A stretch of DNA of 38,231 nucleotides from Deltaproteobacteria bacterium. Its GTDB lineage: Bacteria > Myxococcota_A > Polyangia > Polyangiales > JADJMO01. Below the pieces are notes generated by a model. The model saw only the letters and a program-made list of their open reading frames with translations, had not been told where the DNA came from and did not search any database. Where the stretch lies: contig JALHOE010000073.1 of the NCBI GenBank assembly GCA_022843175.1, positions 1-38,231 on the forward strand. The letters run 5' to 3'. The translations under genes and the position numbers were made by a program. Shown here in pieces: positions 7,293-12,144 of the stretch. Positions within the stretch are counted from its first letter, which is position 1. The number at the start of each line of letters is the position of its first letter.

Positions 7293-7309
7293 CGCCGCGA
7301 CCGTTGGGG

Positions 7310-7354
7310 AGCGGGTTGTCAGGTGGATCTACCATCCACCCTCGACAACCCGCT
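7310..7354. terminator. Bidirectional terminator hairpin between convergent genes
   Basis: AGCGGGTTGTC (7310-7320) plus GGTGGAT (7322-7328) pair with ATCCACC (7334-7340) plus GACAACCCGCT (7344-7354) around a 5-nt loop, with a small internal mismatch. It begins 17 nt after the peroxiredoxin stop and lies before the end of the DUF2378 gene, so it can serve both. The remainder to 7403 is GC-rich with several GCGGCTCC-like repeats and no gene. Confidence 0.7.
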
Positions 7355-7403
7355 CGCTCACGCGCGCGGCTCCCGGCGCGCGGCTAGCCGCTCGCGGCTC
7401 CCG

Positions 7404-9397: not shown

Positions 9398-11455
9398 CTA
9401 CTTCCCCAGCTCGTCGACGATCCGCGACGCGCCGTAGATCTTGCTCAACGCTTCGGTGAGCGCGGCCGAGTGCACCGAGACCGCGCGGTTGACGGCCGGG
9501 TCGAAGCCGTAGTCGCCGCCGAGCGACTGGATGTTGCCGTCGAAGATGAGCCCGACGATCTCGGCGTCCTTGTTGAAGACGGGCGAGCCGGAGTTGCCGC
9601 CGATGATGTCGTTGGTCGAGGCGAAGTTGAAGGGCGTCGAGAGATCGAGCTTGCCCTTGGCCGCGAGCCACGACGCGGGCAGCGCGAACGGATCCTCGCC
9701 GGAGTGGCGGTCGAACGCGCCTGCGAAGGTCGTGATCGGCTTCACCGTCTTGCCATCCTCGACGTAGCCTTTGATCGAGCCGAACGAGAGGCGGTGGCTG
9801 CCGGTGGCGTCGGGGTAGATGCTCGTGCCGTAGACCTCGAACCGCGCCTTGGCGATGAGCTCGCCGTTCTTGGTGTCGACGGCCTCGACGTTGTCCTCGA
9901 AGCGCTTGCGGATCGCTCGCTGGTCGCCGTCGAGGCGGCGGAAGAGCTCGATGAGCGGATCGGTGGACGCGTCGACGGCCTTCTTGCCGCCCTCGAGGAG
10001 CGCCTTGCGCGAAGCGATGTCCTTGAGCGTGGTGCCCTTGATCAGGCGCGCGGCGAGCGTGGCCGGGGACTCCTTGCCGAACAGCTTCTTGACGAACGGG
10101 TGGTCGGCGCCGAGGCCCTCGCGCAGCTTGGTGAGCGAGAAGGTGAGGGTGAAGGTCTCGAACTCGTCGTAGATGGGTGCGCTGGTGAGCAGCTGCTGCT
10201 TGAGCGCCGGGAGCTTCGCCTCGGTGTACTCGCGGAGGCGCTTCTCGTTGGGCTTGGGCAGCTCCTCGGCCGCGCGCACCAGCGTGCGCGCGAAGGACGC
10301 GAGCTCGGAGCGGAACCCGAGGTTGCCCTCCATGTACGAGTAGTTGTCGAGGATCGCGCGGTACTCGTACTGCGCCTTCTCGATCGCCTCCCACGCGCCG
10401 CCGTAGGCCGCGCGCATCTTCGGGTCGGCGAGGACCTTCTGGCGGAGCGCGTTCTCGTCGCCGACCTTCTGACTGAAGAAGCTCTTGTCGTTGAGCGCGA
10501 ACAGCCGGCCACGATACGCCTTCACCGCGTTCTCGACGTAGAACAGCGTGGCGTTGGAGAAGCGCTTTTGCTCGGCGCCGCGGTGCTGGAACTCCGTGAG
10601 CTGCCCGCGGTACTCGGAGAGGTACATGAGCACGCGCGGCATGCGGAAGTCGCGCTCGGTCTCGAGCTTGGAGATCGTGTGCAGCCGCGACGTGCGCCCG
10701 GGCGTGCCGGAGGTGAAGGTGAGGTCGCCCTCCTTGGCCGCCTTCTTCGACCACTTGAAGTAGTGGTCCATCGCGGCGGGCTTGCCGCCCTCGTACACGC
10801 GCACGAACGACACATCGAGGTCGTAGCGGGGGAAGTTGAAGTTGTCCGGGTCGCCGCCGAAGAAGGCGATCTGGAACTCGGGCGCGAACACCAGGCGCAC
10901 GTCGTGGAAGCGGCGGTACTTATAGAGGTCGTAGCGACCGCCGTTGTAGAGGTTGACGACGTCGCAGCGCACGCCCTCGTTGGCGCCGCCCGAACACTCC
11001 TTCTCGAGCTTCGACTTGATCGCCTTCTGCGCGTCGGCGAACGCCTTGCCCTCGAGTCCCTTGGTCGCGCCGGTGACCTTCTCGGTGACGTCGGTGATCT
11101 CGGTGAGCTGGTCGATCTCGAGCTCCGAGCACTTGACCTCGTCGCCCGCCGTCTTCGCGTAGAACCCGCTCTTGACGTAGTCCTTCTGCGCCGTCGACAG
11201 CTGCTCGATGCAGTCGTGCACGCAGTGATGGTTCGTCATCACGAGCCCGGAGGCGGACACGAAGCTCGCCGAGCACCCGGTGCCGGTGCGCGCCGACGCC
11301 AGCCGCACGTGGTCGAGCCACTTGGCGTCGGGCGTGAACCCATACTTCTTGCCGACCGTGGCGGCCGGGAAATTGTTGTACGTCCACATGCCCTCGTCGG
11401 CGTGGGCGGCCGGAGCGAGGGCGAGGAGCGGCAGAGCGAGGATGGCGCGGCGCAT
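9398..11455 (-). CDS. S46 family serine peptidase (dipeptidyl-peptidase 7/11 type)
   Basis: This is a peptidase of 685 residues, close to the family's usual 700. It should remove dipeptides from peptide N-termini in the periplasm. A cleavable signal peptide ends at AHA-DE (about residue 19). The catalytic His lies in MTNHHC (about 76-77), the Asp is probably in the DLDVSFVRVYE region, and Ser622 is in GGNSGSP. FDGN after the serine carries Gly where acidic-specific DPP11 enzymes are reported to carry Arg, which favours DPP7-like preference for hydrophobic P1 residues (inference). The insert around 230-520 is the helical cap. Several extra cysteines near the N-terminus (CSAS, HHCVHDC, KCSE) could form disulfides. 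A GC hairpin (11485-11501) sits in the leader. Confidence 0.93.
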   Translation of the reverse strand: MRRAILALPLLALAPAAHADEGMWTYNNFPAATVGKKYGFTPDAKWLDHVRLASARTGTGCSASFVSASGLVMTNHHCVHDCIEQLSTAQKDYVKSGFYAKTAGDEVKCSELEIDQLTEITDVTEKVTGATKGLEGKAFADAQKAIKSKLEKECSGGANEGVRCDVVNLYNGGRYDLYKYRRFHDVRLVFAPEFQIAFFGGDPDNFNFPRYDLDVSFVRVYEGGKPAAMDHYFKWSKKAAKEGDLTFTSGTPGRTSRLHTISKLETERDFRMPRVLMYLSEYRGQLTEFQHRGAEQKRFSNATLFYVENAVKAYRGRLFALNDKSFFSQKVGDENALRQKVLADPKMRAAYGGAWEAIEKAQYEYRAILDNYSYMEGNLGFRSELASFARTLVRAAEELPKPNEKRLREYTEAKLPALKQQLLTSAPIYDEFETFTLTFSLTKLREGLGADHPFVKKLFGKESPATLAARLIKGTTLKDIASRKALLEGGKKAVDASTDPLIELFRRLDGDQRAIRKRFEDNVEAVDTKNGELIAKARFEVYGTSIYPDATGSHRLSFGSIKGYVEDGKTVKPITTFAGAFDRHSGEDPFALPASWLAAKGKLDLSTPFNFASTNDIIGGNSGSPVFNKDAEIVGLIFDGNIQSLGGDYGFDPAVNRAVSVHSAALTEALSKIYGASRIVDELGK

Positions 11456-11542
11456 GCGCCGGCGCTCTTAGCGGAGCCGCCACGGGCGGTCGACGACCGC
11501 CAGGGTTCCCCGCCGGCGGGTATGGTCGTTCGAGATTCCGAT

Positions 11543-11662
11543 CTACTCGCTATACGCGTTAGTTCGGTACCAGGGCGCGATCGGGCGGGGGCGCGGGCTG
11601 CGCGGTACGTCGGGACGCGGGCAGCGGCCGCTGCGTGCGCAACTAACGCGTATAGCGAGTAG
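11543..11662. repeat. 120-bp element bounded by perfect 22-bp inverted repeats
   Basis: Positions 11543-11564 and 11641-11662 are exact reverse complements over 22 bp (outer end CTACTCGCTATACGCG), enclosing 76 bp. Outside the perfect part the match continues imperfectly for about 10 more bases on each side. The arms are AT-richer than the neighbourhood. The interior is GC-rich and contains the 14-bp palindrome GCAGCGGCCGCTGC (11621-11634). No coding potential of its own is evident and no clear target duplication was found. It could be a MITE-like remnant, a cruciform-forming regulator or a processed hairpin RNA. It occupies most of the 263-nt gap between the S46 gene and the phosphatase gene. 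Confidence 0.8.
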
Positions 11663-11718
11663 TTGCGAATTTGAGGGCGGGGCCCGGGCCGGGCCCTCCC
11701 GCTCGGGACGCGGTTGGG

Positions 11719-12144
11719 TTAGCGGGGGCGGAGCTCGGCGAGGAGGCGCAGCACGTTTTCCTCGATCTGTGGGAGCGCGATCTCGGGGGCGAGCGGGAGG
11801 TCGGAGACCGACCAGTAGCGCACCTTCTCGACCCAGTCCGGGTAGCGCGCGGCGAGCATCGGCCGGTGCTCTTCCTCGTGGAGCGCGACGACGTGCCGGG
11901 CGCGCGTGAAGTCGACGATGCGGAGCGCCGTCGGGAGCAGCGACGTGCAGTGCATGGGGATCTTCCGCTCGGCCATCGCCCGGGCCGTGTGCGGCGAGAG
12001 CTCCCCGTCGACGATGTGCGCGAGCAGTCCGCGGGAGAACGCGCGCTCGGGGAGGCTCATCGCCTCGGCGTGGTGGTTGAACACCGCCTCGGCGAAGCGG
12101 CTGCGATAGAAGTTGCCGGTGCAAATGAAGAGCACGTCGGTCAT
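11719..12144 (-). CDS. Low-molecular-weight protein-tyrosine-phosphatase-like protein
   Basis: A protein of 141 residues with the P-loop of the LMW-PTP/ArsC superfamily at its very N-terminus: VLFICTGNFYRSR, giving Cys8-x5-Arg14-Ser15. The following AEAVFNHHAE helix and the later VVALHEEEH strand fit the fold. The acid loop appears as SVSDLPLAPE rather than the usual DPxxG, so the general acid may be the Asp there. Substrates could be phosphotyrosine proteins or another phosphorylated target. It is 24 nt downstream of the alpha/beta-hydrolase lipoprotein gene. The ATG at 12144 is the only sensible start for the P-loop. Confidence 0.85.
   Translation of the reverse strand: MTDVLFICTGNFYRSRFAEAVFNHHAEAMSLPERAFSRGLLAHIVDGELSPHTARAMAERKIPMHCTSLLPTALRIVDFTRARHVVALHEEEHRPMLAARYPDWVEKVRYWSVSDLPLAPEIALPQIEENVLRLLAELRPR

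Follow-up and report, generated by a model that had tools for sequence, protein, structure and literature searches.

The 120-bp noncoding element at 11543-11662 of the window (the whole stretch of 38,231 nucleotides that was analysed) resembles a known kind of bacterial repeat, the REP pair, but has unusually invariant and strictly paired arms. It is read here, with a probability of about 0.6, as a REP-type extragenic repeat that exists as an inverted dimer with a passive spacer, each arm being a recognition site for a protein. The unit would comprise two copies of an imperfect palindrome of ~30-47 nt, each a putative sequence-specific site for one DNA-binding protein. This protein would need two inverted sites at preferred distances, and the spacer would chiefly set the distance, such that the arms alone are conserved. 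A REP-binding single-strand (Y1/HUH) transposase or a domesticated relative is the leading candidate for such a protein, the main rival candidate being a host DNA-binding protein.

The perfect 22-bp inverted arms, CTACTCGCTATACGCGTTAGTT, lie at 11543-11564 (plus strand) and 11641-11662 (minus strand) and are separated by 76 bp. The runner-up among perfect inverted pairs in the window, at a start-to-start distance of at most 160 bp, measures 13 bp, and inverted pairs like the 22-bp one are expected by chance only ~6e-6 times. The features of the element, together with a second REP-like pair in the window, are as follows.

11526..11572, plus strand: left arm in its extended form (perfect part 11543-11564), a pseudo-palindromic hairpin unit made up of the outer flank ATTCCGAT, the nucleus CTCGCTATACGCG, and the inner part TTAGTTCGG
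11565..11640, no strand: GC-rich spacer of 76 bp, unrelated to the spacers of other copies and within the commonest length class (76-78 bp)
11621..11634, no strand: exact 14-bp palindrome in the spacer of the window copy
11633..11679, minus strand: right arm in its extended form (perfect part 11641-11662), an inverted copy of the left arm with an outer flank of the CGCAA type
7294..7370, no strand: family C REP-like pair, with arms of 27 nt at 7294-7320 and 7344-7370

An initial annotation, made from the letters alone, had described perfect inverted repeats around a GC-rich core, with arms richer in AT than their surroundings, in a gap between two same-strand genes; each of these statements is borne out. 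The GC content is 0.45 in the arm and 0.83 in the spacer vs 0.70 in the window, and the flanking genes, both predicted on the minus strand, occupy 9398-11455 and 11719-12144. As judged from their translations, the former may encode an S46-like peptidase and the latter a small phosphatase-like protein. The interval 11300-11900 harbors no terminator-like or promoter-like site, in line with the annotation's view that a terminator does not explain the repeats; an intrinsic terminator was rejected on the zero terminator-like sites in this interval, the other copies being inspected by eye. The predicted fold of the element is very stable on both strands (z of -6.2 and -5.7), and no Rfam family matches in the window at gathering score.

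A search of the assembly to which the window belongs (9,753,182 bases in 470 contigs, 95% complete) established that the element is not single-copy, so one of the conditions that the annotation had named as refuting its reading does not hold. At ≤3 mismatches, the arm has 44 matches and its reversed control none. These arms, termed family A, form 21 complete inverted pairs, and two more stand alone near contig ends, giving ~23 elements. The lone arms, on contigs C18 and C39, lie 63 and 96 bases from the end, where a partner at the usual spacing of 76-78 bp would be lost; their partners were thus probably cut off. Six of the 23 elements have a contig end no more than 231 bases away, where simple proportion predicts fewer than one, which suggests that the hairpin or the repetitiveness of the elements interrupts assembly.

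The family is sharply bounded. A 47-nt sequence model built from the 44 arms scores them at 47.7-57.5 bits, while the next matches in the genome reach 17.5, 16.2, 14.9, and 13.2 bits. In an 838-kb sample of the assembly, eight arms are found at 0-1 mismatches and then one at 4, on C24, which belongs to a distinct variant. Beyond three copies of this variant, no single or decayed family A arm was found in the genome. These three best sub-family matches (C24, C178, and C191) each occur singly, read ATCTACCGCGTAT(W)(Y)GCGTTAG(W)T, and form a more symmetric palindrome than the paired arm, varying at positions 11, 12, and 20, as the family A arms do. According to the simple gene caller, they lie 12, 58, and 17 bp, respectively, from the nearest predicted gene start, and the C24 site overlaps the predicted end of its other neighbor by 2 bp. 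One neighbor of the solitary variants (loci L272, L273, and L274) looks BamD-like by eye.

Nineteen of the 22 core positions are identical in all 44 arms, and in the extended arm 23 of 47 columns are invariant. Between -7 and +21, variation is confined to -4/-3, -1, 11, 12, and 20; positions -4/-3 are CG or GC in 43 of the 44 arms, and further inward, positions 22/23 are mostly CG or GC. The gradual fading of the match outside the perfect part, remarked upon in the annotation, is also seen over all copies: the arm reaches to about -17 on the outside and +29 on the inside, with its degenerate positions fixed.

Within an element, the arms match each other no better than they match the arms of other elements. 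Whole-arm complementarity is 0.773 in cis vs 0.778 in trans (p 0.69) over 20 of the 21 complete pairs; L073, whose arms nearly touch, was omitted, and the two arms near contig ends lack a partner. Compensatory changes between arms over the whole arm are therefore not seen, as cis equals trans. A borderline excess of cis pairing is found at positions -1, 11, 12, and 20 (0.775 vs 0.711, p 0.053), and the other sub-tests give p 0.058 for the degenerate positions, 0.96 for the outer flank, and 0.34 to 0.60 for the rest. Within an arm, the outer and inner CG/GC positions show no signal of covariation (16 + 6 matching, 11 + 6 mismatched, and 5 other). Because cis arms are no more complementary than trans arms, a full hairpin is not the main cause of arm identity, and each arm seems to be held to one rule independently of its partner.

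The spacers are held to a length rather than to a sequence. Among the 21 complete elements, the spacer measures 76-78 bp in 13 and 40 bp in 4, with 17, 51, 57, and 62 bp occurring once each; all 21 are inverted doublets at characteristic distances, as REPINs are. Kinship was not detected among the family A spacers, in that none of 190 pairs scores above the shuffle maximum of 32, when the 17-bp spacer is omitted and the other 20 are trimmed by 8 bp at each end. The mean pair score lies a little over the shuffled value (16.4 vs 15.7, sd 0.26). As spacers are unrelated among copies, the 14-bp palindrome noted earlier in the core, although exact, is specific to the window copy. A recently copied REP dimer is expected to share its spacer with its source.

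All elements are extragenic. With genes called by a simple codon-usage caller, for which some neighbors may be wrong (e.g., to the right of the dnaK-linked copy), none of the 23 elements overlaps a predicted CDS, the coding fraction being 0.862 in 838 kb; family A is thus extragenic and repeated, as is characteristic of REPs. Seventeen elements have genes on both sides, in 10 co-directional gaps, 6 convergent gaps, and 1 divergent gap. The background, 181 gaps of ≥150 bp, comprises 90 co-directional, 24 convergent, and 67 divergent gaps, so divergent gaps are underused by the elements (1/17 vs 67/181, Fisher p = 0.008). Of the neighboring gene ends that face an element, 25 of 40 are 3′ ends. 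No common theme among the flanking proteins was apparent by eye.

Family A shares its nucleus with two further repeat families of the same genome, B and C. In the 838 kb there are 52 occurrences of the nucleus CTCGCT(n)ACGCG, n being one or two free bases: 32 in family B, 4 in family C, 6 in family A, and 10 elsewhere, without a palindrome by eye. Family B has the form AGGCG-CTCGCTNACGCG-CGCGCCT and family C the form ACAACCCG-CTCGCTNACGCG-CGCGGC; the three families thus have a common nucleus and different basal stems. Their consensus forms fold alike, with a basal stem, a mismatch or bulge, and a CGC/GCG apex, which amounts to an imperfect palindrome of 20-40 nt, as in REPs. The bare 20-mer folds weakly; the folding refers to consensus forms and not to individual arms. 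In the window, the family C consensus matches exactly at 7345-7370, and the arms of the family C pair are 81% complementary and 23 bp apart.

Family B is abundant. Its REP, AGGCGCTCGCTNACGCGCGCGCCT, has 622 genome-wide matches at ≤1 mismatch to the inner 22 bases (e.g., L198:10412, L197:9287, and L204:2597). In 55 relatives it is at the level of the reversed control, with one match each in four genomes and none in 51, the control yielding one or two matches in 3 relatives; a search of viral_contigs with the family B pattern gave 0 matches. All 29 matches at ≤2 mismatches lie outside CDS, and 1 of 27 is in a divergent gap. Families B and C are present as inverted pairs, tandems, and singles; of 37 family B matches in the sample (≤3 mismatches, one site being counted on both strands), 19 belong to inverted pairs and 6 to tandems, and 12 stand alone. 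Both families also have more divergent sites, in greater number than shuffled sequence yields. Among 11 family B spacers, which are shorter and were compared untrimmed at sites with ≤4 mismatches, 4 of 55 pairs score above the shuffle maximum of 21, two of them between contigs and two within one cluster. On the basis of the common nucleus, family A belongs to a species-specific REP expansion, within which it forms a subfamily of few copies that always occur in pairs. One genome holds several REP families with a common nucleus, one of which is strictly paired, with invariant arms and free spacers. This combination poses the question of whether a paired REP carries its spacer along when copied or is maintained by selection locus by locus.

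The element resembles a REP dimer, broadly defined, and is REPIN- or BIME-like and unlike a MITE; a RAYT-driven family is not claimed. REPINs, as described by Bertels and Rainey 2011 (PMC3116915), are REP doublets that form hairpins. Family A agrees with that account in having two conserved inverted ends (16-mers in REPINs), a characteristic spacer length (a 71 bp class in REPINs), an extragenic location, a preference for doublets, and a predicted hairpin (PMC3116915). It differs from REPINs in lacking same-sequence singlets, clear compensatory arm changes, detectable kinship among spacers, and a RAYT gene flanked by its arms. In REPINs, singlets are expected to be decayed remnants, less conserved than the doublets; here the only solitary sites are the three of the distinct variant. 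PMC3733652 describes REP dimers with spacers unlike in sequence yet similar in length, and PMC3733652 and PMC8266576 put most BIME linkers at 20-100 bp, with sequence differing among some of similar length. Like BIMEs and tagged REP dimers in these papers, family A consists of a REP and an inverted REP with a variable linker, and the bulge in the stem, conserved in the REPs of E. coli, is likewise found here (PMC3733652, PMC8266576). Unlike the GTAG/CGTC-tagged dimers, it has no tag before the palindrome and a low copy number (~23). A GTAG does occur at the outer end of each family A arm, by eye inside the palindrome on its 3′ side, and no constant tetranucleotide of the GTAG/CGTC kind was seen by eye outside the stem of families B and C.

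Integron attC sites, ~60-120 bp long, have inverted ends around a variable core and an R-box, GTTRRRY. Family A elements are comparable to them in length and in having inverted ends around a variable core, but unlike them are dispersed single sites. An attC assignment is not supported, as the GTTRRRY motif fits only 12 of the 44 arms (A at position 20), 32 having T.

Among known agents, RAYTs have been proposed to spread REPs, and REP pairs are usually explained as their products. The genome encodes four Y1_Tnp proteins over the Pfam cut-off, and five genes match NF047646 at 34-45 bits, below the cut-off of 80, a sixth match reaching 17.4 bits. Since three genes are common to both lists, six Y1/RAYT-like genes are counted without the 17.4-bit match; a gene on C128 is among the six and was found by PF01797. 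The ~1.5 kb around each of the six genes (shorter where a contig ends) holds no family A arm, so a RAYT link is unproven. As the assembly, at 95% completeness, is spread over 470 contigs, a RAYT gene flanked by family A arms may be missing from it. A B-type site with an intact nucleus lies ~0.2 kb behind the RAYT-like gene on C15, which, at the density of family B, may be chance, and a C-like site at the gene on C187 has 6 mismatches, which is at chance level. At L263-L267, five small paralogs of the HUH (RAYT-like) transposase type have no family A repeats alongside. Subclasses of the RAYT-type protein family without REP association are described in PMC6006769.

The annotation had likened the arms to the terminal repeats of MITEs, and this comparison is not borne out. 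If an insertion sequence not seen here had supplied the 22-bp terminal inverted repeats, a MITE derived from it would account for an element that is repeated, short, extragenic, and inverted at its ends, since MITEs are short, noncoding, repeated, and flanked by inverted ends. MITEs are also expected to have a shared interior, while none of the 190 spacer pairs reveals one, and neither a clear target duplication nor a parent element was found. Over 20 elements, the best target duplication is 8 vs 2.8 expected at 2 nt, with scattered offsets and undefined boundaries, and thus none is outstanding; the assembly contains no longer copy with the same ends, the 44 arms being short-paired or at contig ends; and the ends vary at fixed internal positions. 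A MITE is therefore very improbable. The annotation had also proposed a small structured RNA or a protein-bound cruciform. A small RNA or an mRNA-end hairpin, acting after transcription as a stability or processing element, would suit the very stable fold on both strands, the 3′ ends that face the elements, and the borderline cis excess at four degenerate positions, but it is at odds with the lack of any whole-arm cis excess and with a window devoid of Rfam matches and, around the element, of terminator-like sites. By eye, the dnaK-linked copy moreover has a separate terminator-like hairpin of its own between the gene and the element. This reading is improbable. The protein-bound site is the part of the earlier proposal that the substitution pattern best supports: the absence of singles and decay, the equality of cis and trans, the absence of a RAYT neighbor, and the absence of a GTAG tag together suggest that a sequence-specific protein may read each arm.

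The role of such a protein divides the remaining alternatives. A host-useful binding element, either paired and operator-like or architectural (nucleoid, insulator, or gene-end boundary), locally selected and now immobile, would explain the invariant arms, the unrelated spacers, and the missing decayed copies, all of which are easier to reconcile with selection acting locus by locus than with copying. The degeneracies, which fall at a few fixed positions and vary largely independently in the two arms, point the same way, as do the solitary variants on C24, C178, and C191, which vary at 11, 12, and 20 near predicted gene starts. An old selfish repeat family is expected to contain decayed and single arms, and the missing singles, missing decay, and unrelated spacers argue against a selfish reading. 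However, the flanking genes share no theme by eye, convergent genes flank 6 of 17 elements, contrary to a promoter regulon, and the nucleus is common to an extragenic repeat with 622 matches that looks mobile. The kinship with abundant family B and the placement of the pairs away from promoters argue against a pure host reading, which is considered unlikely. A further scheme, put forward tentatively and with low confidence, is that of a species-specific pair-site system in which one protein of near-absolute arm specificity needs two inverted sites ~40 or 77 bp apart. The arms would then be near letter-perfect while the spacers drift freely, and the protein would also act on the solitary symmetric variants near gene starts, as targets with one site each. 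If so, the elements would serve as functional boundaries or looping sites that arose from the REP expansion and would not be selfish remnants.

The preferred reading, a protein-recognized REP dimer, concerns a family that was found in this genome only. At ≤2 mismatches, the arm is absent from 95 relatives. With filters so strict that 11 of the 44 own arms are lost, the arm model reaches E ≤ 0.1 in 8 of the 182 other genomes searched in the order, each time with a single short, partial match; the best foreign match (17.5 bits, E 0.009) is at chance level. A degenerate arm pattern gave 0 matches in genome_contigs and 0 in viral_contigs, from which near records may be absent. By DnaK, the closest named records belong to uncultured Deltaproteobacteria (92% identity), those of Sorangium and Labilithrix reaching ~77-78%, so the genome is probably Polyangia-like. 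The literature on myxobacterial and deltaproteobacterial repeats does not name the family in the titles and abstract openings among the matches listed, which is no proof of absence. A search for orthologs of the neighboring peptidase in four genomes of the genus and family gave no match, a negative that carries no weight in the absence of a positive control, and thus yielded no empty site at this locus. By eye, the sequence that follows dnaK in the sister genome G001 does not align with the dnaK-linked locus, and in 574 kb of its ~9.6 Mb there are 4 nucleus matches, none within a palindrome by eye, along with other repeats. G001 has other paired palindromes, at L179:9683-9874 and L192:10646-10813, with arms ATCCCCAGCCTGAAGGCTGGGGCAGG and CCGCGGGCTGAAGCCCACGGCA. 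Behind dnaK, the sister genome carries a long simple-repeat array of GCGAAC units that is partly masked as N (L097), and a related genome carries, likewise behind dnaK (L100), an inverted pair with 17-bp arms, CCTAGCAGGCCGTTGAG, 96 bp between them, and extra internal repeats.
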